From a virus, in the IMG/VR virus record IMGVR_UViG_3300021961_000577, positions 1 through 25,421 of that record: a DNA stretch of 25,421 nucleotides; one strand, written 5' to 3'. The first letter of the stretch is position 1; every line of letters begins with the position of its first letter. A model generated the notes under the pieces. That model saw only the letters and a program-made list of their open reading frames with translations. It made no database searches and was not told where the DNA came from. Shown here one piece after another: positions 16,504 through 21,140 of the stretch. Both the position numbers and the translations under genes were made by a program.

Positions 16504-16758
16504 TCACACCTCTACTCTTGGTAAATAGCCTTTTTTCTTATGAGGTACTCTTTCAATATACCCAGCAGAAATAAGAGCTTCAATGTGATAAAGAATATTT
16601 GTATGGGTCTTTTCATACTTATCCCCAAGTTCTTGAAGTGATGGAGAATAGCCAAATTTCTTAAAAAATTTATTAATATCTTTGTATAAATCTTTCTGAA
16701 ATTCTGATATTCTAGATAATTCAATGCTTTTATCGCAAAATTGACATTTTAATTTCAT
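16504..16758 (-). CDS. LexA-type winged-helix DNA-binding protein without protease domain
   Basis: An 84-residue protein with the LexA DNA-binding layout: a helix 'FQKDLYKDINKFFKKFGYSP', then 'SLQELGDKYEKTHTNILYHI' (helix-turn-helix), then 'EALISAGYIERVPHKKKGYL', the wing. The segment matches LexA 'GYSPS..EL......S...I..H...L...G.I.R'. It ends there, so the self-cleaving Ser/Lys peptidase domain of LexA or CI is missing. A CxxC pair at residues 5 and 8 precedes the helices, perhaps one half of a metal site. The ATG is preceded by AAGGAGA. It is the first gene of the leftward operon, beside the divergent promoters, so repression of one or both is a natural hypothesis. Confidence 0.75.
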   Translation of the reverse strand: MKLKCQFCDKSIELSRISEFQKDLYKDINKFFKKFGYSPSLQELGDKYEKTHTNILYHIEALISAGYIERVPHKKKGYLPRVEV

Positions 16759-16779
16759 GTTAAGTCTCCTTAATTAATT

Positions 16780-16808
16780 TTAATATCATATTAAATATTA
16801 TTTGACAA
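16780..16808 (-). promoter_or_regulatory. Candidate leftward sigma-70 promoter
   Basis: On the minus strand TTGTCA (16808 to 16803) is followed after 17 bases by TATTAA (16785 to 16780). Transcription would start near 16773, leaving a short leader that contains the AAGGAGA site of the LexA-like gene. Its -35 box overlaps that of the divergent rightward promoter. Prediction by eye; A+T richness raises the chance of a false match. Confidence 0.55.
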
Positions 16809-16830
16809 TATGTTAAAAAATTTTAAATTA
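16802..16830 (+). promoter_or_regulatory. Candidate rightward promoter, weak -10
   Basis: TTGACA at 16802 to 16807 is a perfect -35 box. The -10 region is less clear: TAAATT (16824 to 16829, spacer 16) or AAATTA (16825 to 16830, spacer 17). The distance from TTGACA to the conserved CATGTTAAA leader is 33 bases, against 34 at the second copy near 20337, which has a good -10. The weak -10 may mean that activation is needed. Confidence 0.5.
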
Positions 16831-16842
16831 ACATCATGTTAA
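16828..16842. promoter_or_regulatory. 15-bp palindrome, candidate operator
   Basis: TTAACAT-C-ATGTTAA is a perfect palindrome around a single C, lying at the expected transcription start of the rightward operon. The half-site ATGTTAA also occurs at 16757 to 16763 (over the start codon of the LexA-like gene), at 16810 to 16816, and at 20372 to 20378. A winged-helix dimer would suit such a site. In very A+T-rich DNA short palindromes occur by chance, so this is a hypothesis. Confidence 0.45.
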
Positions 16843-16856
16843 AAATAAATGGAGAA
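16835..16856 (+). repeat. Shared leader block, copy 1
   Basis: The 22-base block CATGTTAAAAATAAA-T-GGAGAA matches copy 2 (20371 to 20392) at 21 positions. Both are 28 bases from the block's first base to the downstream ATG. GGAGAA is the likely Shine-Dalgarno element. Because ATGTTA is itself an in-frame start, the block may also encode the peptide MLKINGE, and the one difference is synonymous. Confidence 0.8.
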
Positions 16857-16862
16857 CTTAAA

Positions 16863-17114
16863 ATGCAAATCAGAGTAAGAGAACAAGGTCACTGGGCAGG
16901 TACTGGTTACCAAGTAAACATCAATGGTACTAAATTTCCTAAAGAGAGAGGTCTTTGGTATCAGCCAGTTGCTGAAACTGATGAAGAAAAAAAAGCTAAA
17001 GCTATTGAATATGCTAAAGCTGAATACGAAGGTAAATTTGTTTCAAGAACAGGAAACATTTATCAATCAAAAGAAGAATACGAAAAAATTCTAGAAAACG
17101 AGGAGTGGGCATAA
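16863..17114 (+). CDS. First gene of the rightward operon, unknown function
   Basis: An 83-residue protein from the ATG at 16863, placed six bases after GGAGAA. A longer in-frame start at 16836 would add MLKINGELK. I do not recognise a family. The N-terminal part is 'MQIRVREQGHWAGTGYQVNI', then 'KFPKERGLWYQPVAETDEEK', and a lysine/glutamate-rich helical C-terminus (KAIEYAKAEYEGKF) ending NEEWA. It is acidic and lacks membrane segments. Being the first transcribed early gene, it could be an anti-host or regulatory protein, but that is only inference. The last codons and stop lie within a perfect hairpin that is repeated exactly at 20577, and its leader is shared with the gene at 20399. Confidence 0.78.
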   Translation: MQIRVREQGHWAGTGYQVNINGTKFPKERGLWYQPVAETDEEKKAKAIEYAKAEYEGKFVSRTGNIYQSKEEYEKILENEEWA

Positions 17115-17124
17115 GCCCACTTCT
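17101..17124 (+). repeat. 24-base hairpin repeat, copy 1
   Basis: AGGAGTGGGC, loop ATAA and GCCCACTTCT form a 10-base-pair stem with a single G-U pair. The stop codon TAA lies in the loop (17112 to 17114) and the codons before it encode E-W-A. The sequence is identical to 20577 to 20600. There is no U tract, so it is not a standard intrinsic terminator. It may protect or mark mRNA 3' ends, or be a processing site. Confidence 0.85.
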
Positions 17125-17135
17125 TAGGAGTAGTC

Positions 17136-17396
17136 ATGAGAATAATAATTTTATTATTGTTTATTACTAACTGTTCTACTTATAGTCCTTTGGTAGATAC
17201 TAAAGGCAGAAGTGGAACTTTTGAAAACAGCAGAGCTGAAGAATTAACAGATGATATTCAGCATTGTAAAACTCTTGCTAAAGATAATAGCAACATACTA
17301 AAGGATGTTTTGTTAGACTTAGCTTATGAAGAACCTGAGTACAAAACTATATTTAAAAACTGCTTGACTGGTCGTAACCATTCAGTAGTTTTATAG
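17136..17396 (+). CDS. Small exported or lipoprotein-like protein
   Basis: An 86-residue protein with a hydrophobic N-terminus, MRIIILLLFITNCSTYSP, which reads as a signal peptide with a possible lipidation Cys at residue 13. The residue before the Cys is Asn, which is atypical for a lipobox. After it come 'YSPLVDTKGRSGTFENSRAE' and 'DIQHCKTLAKDNSNIL', resembling the 'P.VD..G.....Y..DL..C...A' pattern of small outer-membrane lipoproteins. A role in superinfection exclusion or envelope alteration is possible. The ATG follows AGGAG at 17126 to 17130. A second conserved Cys near residue 73 may form a disulphide with Cys 44. Confidence 0.65.
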   Translation: MRIIILLLFITNCSTYSPLVDTKGRSGTFENSRAEELTDDIQHCKTLAKDNSNILKDVLLDLAYEEPEYKTIFKNCLTGRNHSVVL

Positions 17397-17408
17397 AGAG
17401 GAATAAAA

Positions 17409-17651
17409 ATGATTAAAATAAATATCAAATACTTAGAAGAACTAAAAGTTTCTTTTGAGAAAAGTCCAAGAGATACTTTTCCAAAGAAAGAAATCATCCA
17501 ACTAATTAATAGTTTGATTGAGTTAGCAAAAGCTCAATTTGACTTTGAATTATGTGAGATGGAAAAAGATTTAAAACAAATAATCTCTAATAGAGAACAA
17601 CTTGTTTTAAAAAATAACATATTTCATATTATCAAGAAGGGAGACAAATAA
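17409..17651 (+). CDS. Small helical protein, unknown function
   Basis: An 80-residue protein not recognised as any family. It is helical and charged, with 'KIININYLEEL'-type start (reading MIKINIKYLEELKVSFEKSP), then 'KEIIQLINSLIELAKAQFDF' and 'ELCEMEKDLKQIISNREQLV'. The start follows AGAGAGGAAT, a good ribosome binding site, 12 bases after the previous stop. Its stop overlaps the next start by one base (TAATG). Its early-operon position and coupling support a real gene. Confidence 0.65.
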   Translation: MIKINIKYLEELKVSFEKSPRDTFPKKEIIQLINSLIELAKAQFDFELCEMEKDLKQIISNREQLVLKNNIFHIIKKGDK

Positions 17652-17782
17652 TGGATAGTGTGTGTCTAATATGTAAAGGGAATGATTATATTTGTTTGAG
17701 TGAATCAGATGAAAATTACATTCCCTGTCCTGACTGTGTTCAGACAGAGCCTACTTGGGAGATTCCAAATGAAAGTAAATGA
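17651..17782 (+). CDS. 43-residue zinc-ribbon-like protein
   Basis: A short frame reading MDSVCLICKGNDYICLSESD and then ENYIPCPDCVQTEPTWEIPN-ESK. Two CxxC knuckles (Cys 5 and 8, Cys 26 and 29), separated by 17 residues, form a zinc-ribbon pattern. An extra Cys at 15 may be structural. The ATG overlaps the preceding stop by one base, and the TGA overlaps the next gene's start. Such knuckles occur in small phage proteins that bind DNA or RNA polymerase, but nothing here decides the partner. Cys spacing and coupling support reality. Confidence 0.65.
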   Translation: MDSVCLICKGNDYICLSESDENYIPCPDCVQTEPTWEIPNESK

Positions 17783-17924
17783 ATTTCTCAAAATGTTTAA
17801 TAAAAAGCTCTACATCTTACTTGTAGAGGAACAAAGAATGGAGTTTCCATTTGCAAAAACTATCAACAATCTTAGAAGGGAAAATAAAAATGACATCAGT
17901 AAAACAACAACTAGAAGCAGTTAA
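17769..17924 (+). CDS. Small basic protein, unknown function
   Basis: A 51-residue frame from the ATG at 17769, chosen because GGGAGA lies six bases upstream; it overlaps the zinc-ribbon gene's end by 14 bases. The sequence begins MKVNEFLKMFNKKLYILLVE, then 'RMEFPFAKTINNLRRENKND', and ends with Thr/Ser. The longer frame upstream to 17700 reads into the zinc-ribbon gene and is probably not used. The 3' end overlaps the next gene by 35 bases in another frame. I do not recognise it. Confidence 0.5.
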   Translation: MKVNEFLKMFNKKLYILLVEEQRMEFPFAKTINNLRRENKNDISKTTTRSS

Positions 17925-18213
17925 TGTATCGGAGTGCAGTGAATGGGAATTAGGTTTTATAGAATCTAATAGAAATAATGACAGAGAACCCACTCCAGCT
18001 ATGCAGAAAATCATTGATAAAATGCCTAAATTATTAGGTGGAGTAAAAGCTCATATAGAACAGATATCTACTTCTGCAATTGATAACATGGTCACTGTTA
18101 TTAGTGAAATCCATCAATCATTAACAACTCAAGATTGGTTTAATTCATATCCTGCTGAACAAAGACAAGCTATTTTAGTTTCTTTATTCATTCAGGCTAG
18201 TCGTGCCAAGTAG
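17890..18213 (+). CDS. Unknown helical protein, 107 residues
   Basis: Start chosen at ATG 17890, eight bases after AAGGGA; an upstream in-frame ATG at 17851 lacks such a site and lies in the previous gene. The product begins MTSVKQQLEAVNVSECSEWE. It contains 'PTPAMQKIIDKMPKLLGGVK' and 'SAIDNMVTVISEIHQSLTTQ', mostly helical, ending QAILVSLFIQASRAK. No family is recognised. It overlaps the HNH-like gene by 11 bases. It is a plausible member of the early operon. Confidence 0.65.
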   Translation: MTSVKQQLEAVNVSECSEWELGFIESNRNNDREPTPAMQKIIDKMPKLLGGVKAHIEQISTSAIDNMVTVISEIHQSLTTQDWFNSYPAEQRQAILVSLFIQASRAK

Positions 18214-18541
18214 AGGAGTTAAAGATAGAAAGCTGATGCAGTTTATTCGCAATATGCCTTGTTGTATTAGACAGCGAGAAACTGAATCAGCATGGTTGAA
18301 GATGTGTTGTGGCAGTGGGAGAAAATCTCACGCACACCATCTTCAGCTTGAGGAATTTAGACAAGGTGCTTGGATTAGGAATGACAGAAATCCTGAGACA
18401 GGTAAGAATCAATTATTACCATTATGCCATGCTCATCATACTCGCCTTCACCAAATAGGAGAGAAATTATTTTGGAGAAAATATATGATTGAGCCAAGAT
18501 GTTTAGTGGAATATTATGATGATAAATTTAGAGAGGAATAA
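18203..18541 (+). CDS. HNH-like / DUF968-like putative endonuclease
   Basis: A 112-residue protein rich in Cys and His. From a GTG start at 18203 the sequence shows 'KLMQFIRNMPCC' (Cys 20 and 21), 'CCGSGRKSHAHHLQLEEF' (Cys 35 and 36, His 43, 45 and 46) and 'LLPLCHAHHTRLHQIGEKLF' (Cys 75, His 76, 78, 79 and 83). The order 'PCC..., AHH, LPLCH.HH..LH' matches phage HNH or DUF968-like proteins, which bind zinc and cut or process DNA. The GTG start keeps the typical 'D..L..I...PC' lead-in; an ATG at 18236 is the alternative. It overlaps the previous gene by 11 bases and is followed one base after its stop by the next ATG. Confidence 0.72.
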   Translation: MPSRGVKDRKLMQFIRNMPCCIRQRETESAWLKMCCGSGRKSHAHHLQLEEFRQGAWIRNDRNPETGKNQLLPLCHAHHTRLHQIGEKLFWRKYMIEPRCLVEYYDDKFREE

Positions 18542-18542
18542 A

Positions 18543-18806
18543 ATGACTACAAGATTAGAACAAATCTTAAAGACATCAGACAAAGCTAATACTTTGCAAC
18601 AGATAGAAAAAATAATCAAAAGCAGACAAGAAGGAAAAATATATTTCTATTATACTGGATTCATCATGGATGATAGAACTAAAAAACAAAATAAATCATT
18701 AAGAGAGATATCAGGTTTCTTAAATTATTCTGCTTCTAAGAATTATTGCAGTCTTTTTCAGATTAGACATTCAGAGAATATTTATTTTTATTTTTTTAGG
18801 AGATAA
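18543..18806 (+). CDS. Unknown small protein, 87 residues
   Basis: Start chosen at ATG 18543, which follows AGAGAGGAA; the longer in-frame start at 18516 lies inside the HNH-like gene. The sequence begins MTTRLEQILKTSDKANTLQQ and continues through 'IKSRQEGKIYFYYTGFIMDD' and 'KSLREISGFLNYSASKNYCS'. It ends in an aromatic-rich stretch (ENIYFYFFRR). It may be an alpha/beta domain. No family is recognised. It ends one base before the next gene's start. Confidence 0.6.
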   Translation: MTTRLEQILKTSDKANTLQQIEKIIKSRQEGKIYFYYTGFIMDDRTKKQNKSLREISGFLNYSASKNYCSLFQIRHSENIYFYFFRR

Positions 18807-18807
18807 C

Positions 18808-19158
18808 ATGAAACCAGCATACTTAGACGAATACGATTTAGATTTAGGCAAAGTTCATGAAGAAATTAATAAACTAGGAGAAGAATTAGCAGAAGCAGAA
18901 GCTTCTTTAAAACTTCATGAAGAATTTAGGAAATCAGAAAAAGCTAAATTGACAAATCAAAATTTAGTTAATGCAAAATCTATTTCTCAAGCAGAATCTA
19001 TTACTCTAGCGAGTGATGAATATAAACAATTAATCACAGATGAAGGTGCATTAATTAAAGCTTATCGTATCGCTAAGATTAGATATGATTCTTATATCAC
19101 TGGGTTAGATTTATGGAGAACAAAACAATCTACTCAGAGACAGGCTATGAAATTATGA
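18808..19158 (+). CDS. Coiled-coil protein, 116 residues
   Basis: Begins MKPAYLDEYDLDLGKVHEEI and is nearly all helix, with a heptad-like coiled coil in 'KLGEELAEAEASLKLHEEFR' and later 'EGALIKAYRIAKIRYDSYIT'. The start ATG is preceded by AGGAGATAAC. This type of small coiled-coil protein often precedes a RecB/Cas4-like nuclease in phages; here the stop overlaps the nuclease start by four bases (ATGA). A partner or regulator of that nuclease is an inference from linkage only. Confidence 0.68.
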   Translation: MKPAYLDEYDLDLGKVHEEINKLGEELAEAEASLKLHEEFRKSEKAKLTNQNLVNAKSISQAESITLASDEYKQLITDEGALIKAYRIAKIRYDSYITGLDLWRTKQSTQRQAMKL

Positions 19159-19964
19159 CAAATCATGATATAAATAATCAGGGTGCTGAGAAAATTATTC
19201 CTCAACAAAGTCCTCCACTCAGCATCCTTCATAAGTGGAAATTAGGAAAACTTTCACCCAATAAAATAAATACTTGGAAAAGAAATAAAGCTTTATTTTA
19301 TCTGAACTACATAGAAGAATATAGAACACCTTCTAATGATAAAATGGTTAGAGGTCAGGCAGTGGAAGCTGGTATTCATTCTCTTTTCTTAGGTCATGAT
19401 ATGCAGATGTCTATTAAAAATGCACTTCAATATTATGACGAAGCTTTAAAAGACTTTAAAGGAGATAAAGAAAAATCAAGAGAGAAAATTCCTTTAATGA
19501 TTGAATATGGTTTTAATGAACTAAATGAATTTAGATTAATTTCCTTCCAAAAAAAGGTAGAGTGTGAGATAGCAGGAGCAGAATTTGTTGGCTATACGGA
19601 CTTCATTATGGATGTAAAGGGAGAAACTCATATCATTGATTTAAAAACAACAGGGAAGAAACCCTATCAGTTTTATACTCATGAACTCCAGCAGTCTATC
19701 TATAGTCATGCTCTTGGACATCCAGCAACTTTATTTTATATCATAGCAACTCAGAGAATTAATCAGTTCATTCATATTGTGACCGAAGATATGGTCAAAG
19801 CTTGTATAAAGGATATTGAATTAACTGTTCAATCTTTAATTAGGGTCTTGGAAATGTGTACCAATGAAGATGATTTAAAATCTGTATGTATGCCTAATCT
19901 TGAGGACTTTGAATGGAATGATGAAGAACTCGTTTCAGTAAGAAAAAAAGTATTCGGTGTTTAA
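19155..19964 (+). CDS. RecB/Cas4-like PD-(D/E)XK nuclease
   Basis: A 269-residue protein from the ATG at 19155, overlapping the upstream stop (ATGA). An earlier frame start at 19113 lies inside that gene and is unlikely. It shows the layout of RecB-family nucleases: 'LSPNKINTWKRNKALFYLNY' (residues 33 to 52), 'MVRGQAVEAGIHSLF' (64 to 78), 'GYTDFIMD' with D149, 'HIIDLKTTGK' with D162 and K164, and a 'QQSIY' Q-x-x-x-Y motif (Q179, Y183). Such proteins cut single- or double-stranded DNA and in phages serve recombination, replication or host DNA degradation. No helicase or single-strand annealing protein is encoded next to it. Confidence 0.82.
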   Translation: MTNHDINNQGAEKIIPQQSPPLSILHKWKLGKLSPNKINTWKRNKALFYLNYIEEYRTPSNDKMVRGQAVEAGIHSLFLGHDMQMSIKNALQYYDEALKDFKGDKEKSREKIPLMIEYGFNELNEFRLISFQKKVECEIAGAEFVGYTDFIMDVKGETHIIDLKTTGKKPYQFYTHELQQSIYSHALGHPATLFYIIATQRINQFIHIVTEDMVKACIKDIELTVQSLIRVLEMCTNEDDLKSVCMPNLEDFEWNDEELVSVRKKVFGV

Positions 19965-20328
19965 TAACAACAATCAATTTGATATTGACTTAGCCTATGG
20001 ACAGGTTAAGGAAAAGCAATTAGCAGATATACTTCAAAATCAAAAGATTGAGGTAAAAACAGATAAGATTTGGCACAAAACAGGGAATGTCGCTATTGAA
20101 TATATGTGTAGTGGTAAACCCAGTGGAATAGCTGTAAGCAAAGCTCCATTTTATGCAATTATTTTAGCCATAGAGGAAGAAATACATAATATTGTGATAA
20201 TTCCTACTCCAAAACTAAAAGATATAGCTAGAAAGCTAAAAAACATAGGAAAAACGACTTTTGGGGGTGATAATAATGCTTCAAAGATGGTTTTAGTGCC
20301 TATTTCAGAATTATTTAAAATATCTTAA
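19957..20328 (+). CDS. Small PD-(D/E)XK-like endonuclease
   Basis: A 123-residue protein from a GTG start overlapping the RecB-like gene by eight bases. It begins MFNNNNQFDIDLAYGQVKEK and has the pattern of a minimal nuclease: 'EKQLADIL' with E19, then 'KIEVKTDKIWHKTGNVAIEY' with E32, K34 and E48. The E-x-K core with 'W..TGN..IE' is one I recognise from small phage nucleases of uncertain substrate, sometimes suggested to be resolvases or restriction-like. The C-terminal half, 'MVLVPISELF', closes a beta sheet. The start is the only reasonable codon before the motif; no strong ribosome binding site is seen. Confidence 0.7.
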   Translation: MFNNNNQFDIDLAYGQVKEKQLADILQNQKIEVKTDKIWHKTGNVAIEYMCSGKPSGIAVSKAPFYAIILAIEEEIHNIVIIPTPKLKDIARKLKNIGKTTFGGDNNASKMVLVPISELFKIS

Positions 20329-20336
20329 AATAATAC

Positions 20337-20358
20337 TTGACAATTATTTGACAATTAT
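20337..20358 (+). repeat. Tandem 11-base repeat over the -35 region
   Basis: TTGACAATTAT occurs twice in tandem without interruption. The first copy supplies the -35 box; the second lies in the spacer. The divergent region near 16802 has a related TTGACAATATG. It may be a double regulator site or a simple duplication. Confidence 0.7.
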
Positions 20359-20366
20359 GGTATAAA
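20337..20366 (+). promoter_or_regulatory. Strong sigma-70 promoter inside the rightward block
   Basis: TTGACA at 20337 to 20342, then 18 bases, then TATAAA at 20361 to 20366, with TGG just before it as an extended -10. Transcription would start near 20373, at or beside the ATG of the conserved leader. It follows the small nuclease gene and drives the next genes. Confidence 0.75.
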
Positions 20367-20370
20367 GAAC

Positions 20371-20392
20371 CATGTTAAAAATAAACGGAGAA
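20371..20392 (+). repeat. Shared leader block, copy 2
   Basis: CATGTTAAAAATAAA-C-GGAGAA differs from copy 1 (16835 to 16856) at one base. The following ATG is again 28 bases from the block start. The block begins about where transcription should start, so the first ATG could serve as a leaderless start and the second as a Shine-Dalgarno-led start in the same frame. Confidence 0.8.
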
Positions 20393-20398
20393 ACAAAA

Positions 20399-20590
20399 AT
20401 GAACGTAGGCGATAAGGTTTGGGTATTGCAGACTGACAAAGATGATGAATGTTGGGTTGCAGGTACTCTTATCAAAAAAACTGCAAAGAGATTTCTGGTT
20501 AGAAATCATTTAAGAGAAATAACTAGATACTATGCTCATTGTGAGCCAAGAGCTAAAAAAGTAGATAGTGATTCAAAGGAGTGGGCATAA
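20399..20590 (+). CDS. Small SH3-like protein, unknown function
   Basis: A 63-residue protein from the ATG six bases after GGAGAA; the longer in-frame start at 20372 would add MLKINGETK. It begins MNVGDKVWVLQTDKDDECWV, continues 'AGTLIKKTAKRFLVRNHLRE' and ends DSKEWA. The pattern 'VGDKVWVL......W..G.....' is typical of a small SH3- or Tudor-like barrel, which binds nucleic acid or protein. Its body has no resemblance to the gene at 16863, yet both share the leader and the last codons in a hairpin. It has its own promoter. Confidence 0.75.
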   Translation: MNVGDKVWVLQTDKDDECWVAGTLIKKTAKRFLVRNHLREITRYYAHCEPRAKKVDSDSKEWA

Positions 20591-20600
20591 GCCCACTTCT
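20577..20600 (+). repeat. 24-base hairpin repeat, copy 2
   Basis: Identical to 17101 to 17124: AGGAGTGGGC, loop ATAA, GCCCACTTCT. The TAA stop of the SH3-like gene is in the loop (20588 to 20590). After it the next gene's ribosome binding site AAAAGGAGA follows within a few bases. Confidence 0.85.
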
Positions 20601-20617
20601 GAAAAGGAGATACAATA

Positions 20618-21064
20618 ATGAATAAGATAAATCTTAAAGTTAATGAAGTTAAAATCTTCAAAGAGCCAGTTGAGTATTATTCAACAGATATTGGTGCTTG
20701 TTCTAGTAGCATCAGAGGAGTAATAGTCAAAAGAAAAGCTACTCACTTTAAAAGAAAGAAAGAAAGAGATAGGAATGGCTCTAGAGACCTTTACTATATT
20801 TCAAACGGAAAATATGTAGAGACAATAGTTAAGACTAGAGATTTCTTTACTGATTATAATGAAGCATTAAAAGCAATATCTAAATATGCAAAAGAAAAAG
20901 TGAATAAAAAAATATCTTCTTTGAAAAGACAGATATCAGAGATGGAAGAAGTCTTATCTAAAAAAGATAGTTTTGATATTGTGAAATGTACTGAAATAAT
21001 ATCCTCTAATAATAGAGAATCAGTGCTTATTAAATTTAAATGTGGGGAGAATGAAAATGTTTAA
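20618..21064 (+). CDS. Unknown basic protein, 148 residues
   Basis: Begins MNKINLKVNEVKIFKEPVEY after a good AAAAGGAGAT site. A central basic region (IVKRKATHFKRKKERDRNGS) suggests nucleic-acid binding. 'DLYYISNGKYVETIVKTRDF' may be a beta segment, and about residues 90 to 118 form a coiled coil (EKVNKKISSLKRQISEMEEV). The end overlaps the 27-residue membrane peptide start by eight bases. No family is recognised. Confidence 0.68.
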   Translation: MNKINLKVNEVKIFKEPVEYYSTDIGACSSSIRGVIVKRKATHFKRKKERDRNGSRDLYYISNGKYVETIVKTRDFFTDYNEALKAISKYAKEKVNKKISSLKRQISEMEEVLSKKDSFDIVKCTEIISSNNRESVLIKFKCGENENV

Positions 21065-21140
21065 CATAGCTTTAACTACATTTGTTCATATCGCTATGAT
21101 TGGATTTATAATTTATTTTATTAAAGAGCTATTCAATTAA
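21057..21140 (+). CDS. 27-residue single-pass membrane peptide
   Basis: A short frame, MFNIALTTFVHIAMIGFIIY followed by FIKELFN, almost wholly one transmembrane helix with a Lys/Glu end. It has a strong upstream GGGGAG eight bases before the ATG and overlaps the previous stop. Its last 12 bases overlap the end of the converging gene at 21129. Phage-encoded peptides of this kind can be holin-like or exclude other phages; there is no direct evidence. A chance frame cannot be excluded, but the ribosome binding site and length-to-hydrophobicity fit argue against it. Confidence 0.55.
   Translation: MFNIALTTFVHIAMIGFIIYFIKELFN

Follow-up and report, generated by a model that had tools for sequence, protein, structure and literature searches.

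Unrelated small genes between a common leader and a stop-codon hairpin: probable variable gene slots in viruses related to Pelagibacter phages

Two genes with common ends

The window, i.e. the whole stretch of DNA analyzed here, is a virus record of 25,421 bases (IMGVR_UViG_3300021961_000577). The isolates nearest to it are Pelagibacter phages, and its terminase is 52-53% identical to those of HTVC202P, HTVC026P, HTVC112P and HTVC111P. Two genes within the window, here referred to as cassettes 1 and 2, begin and end with the same sequences (Table 1). The leader ATGTTAAAAATAAAYGGAGAA is located at 16836-16856 and 20372-20392. No further copy was present in the window at up to three mismatches, and dinucleotide-preserving shuffles gave a mean expectation of 0.02. 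The 24-mer AGGAGTGGGCATAAGCCCACTTCT, which forms a hairpin, is identical at 17101-17124 and 20577-20600, and the shuffles yielded 0 copies of it. A chance repeat of leader or hairpin was ruled out by these counts.

An earlier sequence-only reading of this DNA had described a block starting 28 nt before ATG 16863 and ATG 20399 with a single mismatch (T/C), which is correct. The different bodies that it noted were confirmed as well: the proteins of 83 aa and 63 aa belong to separate BLASTP families, and no PHROG or Pfam family was common to both. The 3' hairpin is indeed an identical 24-mer, but it is not placed behind the genes, as its sequence includes their final codons and the stop TAA. The reading also missed an upstream ATG (16836 and 20372) which lies inside the block and in frame with the start codon that it had named. 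Both ORFs begin with M-L-K-I-N-G-E-(L/T)-K-M. Their C-termini are ..EEWA in copy 1 and ..KEWA in copy 2; the hairpin, AGGAGTGGGC-ATAA-GCCCACTTCT, encodes ..(K/E)-E-W-A-stop with the TAA in the loop.

Compared with the relatives G001-G008, the early block of the window (16504-21140) was rearranged. In these relatives the genes have one direction, and the cassette together with a short ORF (MFNIALTTF..) precedes the lipoprotein-like, HNH and exonuclease genes. The early block of the window, by contrast, is opposite in direction to the structural genes, and its cassette comes after those three genes.

Table 1. Positions of the cassette features and neighboring genes in the window, and of Erf-type genes in relatives
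Feature	Position	Strand	Description
Putative sigma-70-like promoter, cassette 1	16802..16829	+	TTGACA, 16 nt, TAAATT; 10/12 matches in consensus scan
Leader, cassette 1	16835..16862	+	ATG1 16836 in frame, GGAG, 8 nt, ATG2 16863
Body A, family F1, 83 aa	16863..17114	+	slot gamma
HTH gene, neighbor of slot gamma	16504-16758	-	
86-aa ORF, neighbor of slot gamma	from 17136		
3' hairpin, cassette 1	17101..17124	+	10-bp stem (11 including next pair), loop ATAA, TAA 17112-17114; predicted -18.8 kcal/mol, z -4.0
Putative sigma-70-like promoter, cassette 2	20337..20366	+	TTGACA, 18 nt, TATAAA; ends 5 nt before ATG1
Second TTGACA, promoter region of cassette 2	20348-20353		
Leader, cassette 2	20371..20398	+	ATG1 20372 in frame, GGAG, 8 nt, ATG2 20399
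Body N, family F10, 63 aa	20399..20590	+	slot alpha, upstream of membrane-like ORF MFNIALTTF.. (21057)
3' hairpin, cassette 2	20577..20600	+	same 24-mer, loop stop TAA 20588-20590; predicted -17.8 kcal/mol, z -4.8
Second gene behind cassette 2, 148 aa	20618..21064	+	unrelated 125-aa ORF instead in L007
PD-(D/E)XK nuclease	19158..19964	+	lambda-exonuclease-like PHROG matches; possible recombination partner
Erf-type gene	G001:4667-5062, G002:14061-14456, G005:14834-15232, G006:8898-9293, G008:14549-14947		between lipoprotein-like and HNH genes

Distribution of the ends and families of bodies

A scan of 2.9 million viral contigs with the hairpin only matched 30 contigs, and most of these matches were located at the end of a short ORF with the leader ATG..(AAT)ACAGGAGAAACTAAA-ATG at its start. 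Scanning with the leader only yielded further cassette members as well as unrelated genes; L039-L042, L046-L049, L052-L054 and L057-L060 were set aside as such other genes. Many of the genes found by their leader terminate in a hairpin. Thus, whether searched from the hairpin alone or from the leader alone, the two ends co-occur around variable content. Additional members were found with body A and body N as the only queries, a third and independent line of support for the co-occurrence. The relatives studied exclude L001, L003, L005 and L008.

The bodies were grouped into approximately 23 BLASTP families (26 clusters minus three non-cassette clusters), of which at least 15 carried the hairpin in some member. 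The ends are therefore not confined to one gene family, the finding that would have spoken against the cassette proposed by the sequence-only reading. A single family with aligned bodies was ruled out by the BLASTP families and by body identities at the level of shuffled sequences. Some families are perhaps remotely related to each other, and F10 and F20 appeared similar by eye.

A stop-in-loop hairpin was present at the end of 13 of 28 genes with the leader pattern and of 4 of 660 other ORFs (Fisher p 7e-17; counted in 25 sequences, namely the window, relatives and four isolates, the rows of which are not independent). Two of these four ORFs carry a variant cassette hairpin, and one of the two is a leader gene that was missed by the regular expression. 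About half of the leader genes lacked the hairpin and end in the SD of the next gene (..AAGGAGGTAAAATAATG), hence the 3' end is optional.

The hairpin had no exact match in 84,980 bacterial and archaeal genomes, nor did body A match in them. Among isolate phages neither a convincing hairpin nor relatives of body A or body N were found, and the cassette-type hairpin was absent from four Pelagibacter phage genomes. In the last 600 bases of L009, a gene that bears the hairpin starts with another leader, GTCTATAGCAATAGGAGGCTATTATT-ATG, and the next gene has a near-identical one. This may represent another repeated leader type in another phage.

Leader and promoter

The variants of the leader preserve GGAG, 8 nt and ATG as well as the first ATG in frame, with gaps of 21, 24, 27 or 30 nt. 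In all 33 distinct promoter-leader combinations the upstream ATG was in frame. The leader detector demanded this upstream ATG, and searches without the demand revealed no exception among true cassettes. Where a good -10 element was found, it mostly ended 5-9 nt before the first ATG. The automatic finder overlooked a better-placed -10 in some rows (L002, L004, L103, L124), and the promoter of cassette 2 was called from its sequence together with the promoter geometry across the 33 combinations. Because of the position of the -10 element, transcription would start at or next to the first ATG. Judging from the sequence, a leaderless start in addition to the SD-led start is possible.

The hairpin as a structure

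Eight variants of the hairpin were found. Each of them retained 10 of 10 pairs, with several pairs altered on both sides, and the stop codon was located in the loop every time. The second main type is AGGAGTGTGC-TTAG-GCACACTTCT. In L083 seven pairs differ, and in L038 another reading frame runs through the hairpin, yet the stop is still in the loop. Predicted energies ranged from -15 to -19 kcal/mol (z -3.4 to -6.3). Covariation on alignment A4 was 0.196 versus 0.107 (4 of 500 shuffles), a count that is only partly informative, with L083 one base out of register. The compensation in the stems shows selection on the structure. Since homology for recombination alone needs no compensation, the hairpin functions as an RNA or DNA structure. 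Together with the ribosome-binding site of the leader beside a promoter-like sequence, the compensated stems bear out the other explanation offered by the sequence-only reading, namely an expression signal.

Behind the hairpin most copies continue with CTTCT and then CAGGAGG without a U-run; because of this poor U-run it would at best be a weak intrinsic terminator. A new SD and ATG follow directly in 35 of 41 cases, and hairpin-less members have an overlapping stop-start instead, which argues that the hairpin separates two genes for translation. In four relatives (L014, L022, L101 and L103) the element directly after it is a promoter-like TTGCAC-17-TATAAA, recognized by eye. The hairpin had no match in Rfam. 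With its loop stop and its compensated stem, it has the look of an insulator, translational or transcriptional, that is as yet undescribed. Another stop-in-loop stem (CCCATTCCTACATAGGGGTGGG) ends a non-cassette gene in L112 (G002) and L100, with ORFs of 268 and 283 aa.

The shared peptides themselves (N-terminal M..NTGETKM, C-terminal KEWA) could be functional tags, e.g. for stability or delivery, and the in-frame upstream ATG in all 33 combinations and the recurrence of KEWA in most hairpin-bearing families would fit this. We consider tags very improbable, however, as the peptides result from the SD (GGA GAA = GE) and from the stem. Furthermore, the C-terminus varies (ECA, ESA, GTA, EWV, or RSGQ in the other frame of L038) while the hairpin stays.

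Slots and exchange of bodies

The longer relatives are colinear and several have two units each. Three slots were distinguished. Slot alpha, which holds window copy 2, precedes the short MFNIALTTF.. ORF. Slot beta separates the portal region from the major capsid gene. Window copy 1 occupies slot gamma, with the HTH gene on one side and the 86-aa ORF on the other. Body A was located in slot gamma in the window, L002 and L004, in slot alpha in L007 and in slot beta in G001, L023 and G003. Likewise, F5 and F9 were found behind alpha-type as well as beta-type upstream sequences. Pairs with different bodies in the same slot were 87-99% identical upstream, with the bodies at shuffle level; the flank behind the hairpin was common to only some of these pairs.

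In two pairs of close relatives the content differs between the same ends. L013 and L024 share a stretch of 4152 nt with 99.88% identity that ends 5 nt past ATG2. Their bodies are unrelated, and an identity of 99.4% resumes 1 nt before the hairpin stem. L016 also carries the F5 body of L013, at 91% identity; its leader and hairpin match those of L013 completely (100%), and the identity of the flanks does not exceed background on either side. L007 and the window share 86-96% identity in most proteins. Up to ATG2 of slot alpha only 5 of 153 nt differ, the L007 body in this slot is the slot-gamma body of the window (94% nt), and the hairpin and next SD of L007 match slot alpha of the window again in 43 of 44 nt. 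The two window slots have a 22-nt leader block and the 24-nt hairpin in common as boundary homology, and the junctions of L007 are located at them. Position 2 of slot alpha is variable too, since its 148-aa gene is replaced in L007 (Table 1). The cassette exchange by recombination that the sequence-only reading had suspected thus takes the form of same-slot replacement bounded by the ends, with the site of the crossover presumably there.

Homologues of body N outside the slot (L132/L133) end in ..LDSDND without KEWA, and they carry no leader. Therefore the ends are a property of the slot, not of the gene. With so many unrelated bodies between them, they mark an exchangeable gene slot. Members of F8, F16 and F26 were the first gene in one phage and the second gene behind the hairpin elsewhere (L012/L018, L017/L021, L103/L019), so this second position is variable too.

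All relatives are metagenomic contigs, which might point to assembly chimeras at the repeated ends of 24-30 nt, or to chance repeats. Either is hardly credible. The alternatives at slot alpha were each found in several contigs from different datasets (F5 in L013 and L030; F6 in L024, L025 and L034), the window alone holds two copies, and chance is excluded by the shuffle tests.

Proteins encoded by the bodies

Functional assignment of the bodies by Pfam and PHROGs gave mostly no match. The body of L050 (F18, 159 aa) resembled SprT/M91-like metallopeptidases, with a weak Pfam match and strong matches to PHROGs of unknown function, and F18 is the sole body with a functional hint. A fold model of body A, of moderate quality (pLDDT 77), had no significant match among PDB or viral structures; an AP2/arm-DNA-binding fold had been guessed for this body and was unsupported by the fold searches. 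The prediction for body N gave an unusable model. The bodies are good candidates for host-takeover or anti-defence proteins.

Recombination genes and proposed explanation

An Erf (Rad52-like) annealing protein scored over the curated cut-off in six of eight records. At the place corresponding to these Erf genes the window carries unrelated small ORFs (17409-18213), and neither Erf nor RecT was matched in the window; RecT was not found at all. Rad52-like proteins recombine diverged sequences (PMC3945230). A tyrosine integrase was found in none of the eight records, which speaks against site-specific recombination of the bodies by integron-like sites or a mobile element, even though defined ends and a 3' hairpin would be expected of such a system. 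In addition, the two ends differ from each other, the stem sequence is free to vary and hairpin-less members occupy the same slots, and we regard this mechanism as extremely improbable.

In our opinion the two genes are likely to be occupants of variable accessory-gene slots, bounded by the leader and an optional hairpin, in a group of Pelagibacter-phage-like siphoviruses. The sigma-70-like promoter would set the transcription start at or near ATG1, followed by GGAG, 8 nt and the in-frame ATG2. At the other end, the hairpin with its loop stop would terminate the translational unit ahead of a new SD and start codon or a promoter-like sequence, and any ORF between the ends would thus be expressed and insulated. 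As the same ends occur at two slots of several fuller contigs and in many related phages, they provide common homology flanking unrelated bodies. The ends would then be expression signals which, being common, also act as short homologies for exchange, and bodies would travel between slots and between phages. Both proposals of the sequence-only reading, recombination and expression signal, are probably right. We infer that the crossover lies inside the ends, rather than elsewhere combined with selection, and likewise the acting recombinase and a terminator or insulator activity of the hairpin. Common ends may, however, mark places where exchange is tolerated and not crossover sites.

Alternatively, the ends could be expression signals only, with bodies joined illegitimately at random and only those surviving that restore promoter-leader and hairpin; the ends would then resemble boundaries but not be sites of recombination. 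Stems kept by compensation and not by sequence are compatible with this, as is a leader that drifts in sequence but retains its spacing and frame. Moreover, boundary sequences are classically not findable at most joints of phage mosaics (PMC3029335). Illegitimate joining would leave displaced joints in the body or partial ends, whereas the junctions in L013/L024 and L007/window are located exactly at the common ends on both sides. An exact 24-mer common to phages with ~52% identical terminases does not fit either, and we therefore regard expression signals without exchange homology as unlikely. Returning to slots bounded by exchangeable ends, we tentatively suggest, with more doubt than confidence, that one pair of ends could serve as start signal, stop-hairpin insulator and Rad52-like homology target, through which marine phages would share a library of small genes at three slots.

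Whether the gene-by-gene mosaics of phages arise by short boundary homologies or by random joining has long been debated. Here, both boundaries are visible. They are short, they recur at three slots, and near-identical genomes hold many alternative genes between them. With such boundaries in an Erf-encoding phage group close to the pelagiphages, the question of boundary homology becomes testable. Moreover, the ends offer a way to gather the contents of the slots, i.e. orphan small genes which are candidate host-takeover or anti-defence proteins.

Comparison with known systems

The nearest idea is that of the PeSLs (promoter early - stem-loop), promoter-terminator motifs of T4-like phages that reportedly mediate modular shuffling (Arbiol et al. 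2010, Comeau et al. 2014; cited in PMC4503421 and PMC3950731). A conserved promoter and stem-loop are reportedly located beside small accessory genes, whose shuffling between close relatives they mediate. The shuffling at the motif among close relatives resembles our findings in L013/L024 and L007/window, and the hairpin abuts a promoter-like sequence in L014, L022, L101 and L103 as well. In contrast to PeSLs, promoter and stem-loop here flank a single gene, one at each end. What is conserved on the 5' side is a translation leader and not the promoter, and the stem-loop overlaps the last part of the coding sequence, its loop holding the stop codon. Where a PeSL has an early promoter directly after its stem-loop, an SD and ATG come after 35 of the 41 hairpins. 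Furthermore, each genome has about two copies, and the phages are small siphophages from a different lineage; the relatives by terminase are Pelagibacter phages of ~32 kb and not T4-like myoviruses.

The start-associated sequences (SAS) of cluster K mycobacteriophages are, in the sections relevant here, described as 13 bp long with the consensus GGGATAGGAGCCC, located before start codons in 11-19 copies per genome (PMC3203893, PMC11373665). Like SAS and ESAS, the latter with a SigA-like promoter according to the same sections, the leader is a short conserved SD-bearing sequence just before the start codons of different phamilies. Its sequence differs, however, and the window holds only two copies. 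A paired 3' hairpin and the swapping of bodies between slots are not described for SAS in those sections (PMC3203893, PMC11373665).

Morons of lambdoid phages are accessory genes with their own expression signals (Juhala et al. 2000, as cited in a passage of PMC7067206). Like morons, the cassettes sit between conserved genes, as in slot beta between the portal and major capsid genes; their sigma-70-like promoter is a putative one. For a moron-type intrinsic terminator the hairpin is stable, with a poor U-run in most copies. As far as that passage goes, morons are not defined by ends common to unrelated members, nor by exchange at such ends. Integron-like cassettes differ by the tyrosine integrase, which was not found here.

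Boundary (linker) sequences of the modular theory are short common border sequences that serve as sites of homologous exchange (PMC3029335, PMC3945230), and the presence of Erf in the relatives adds circumstantially to the resemblance. Unlike them, the borders described here flank a single gene at either end. One border is structured, and the pair is common to three slots. The remark of the sequence-only reading that it had not seen such an arrangement described holds for layout and host group, and not for the concept. In the open-licence literature we found no description of pelagiphage-like viruses in which unrelated genes are framed by a common leader and a stop-codon-in-loop hairpin. The layout and the host group thus appear undescribed, whereas the concept is known, SAS/ESAS included: PeSLs, morons and boundary sequences embody the same idea.
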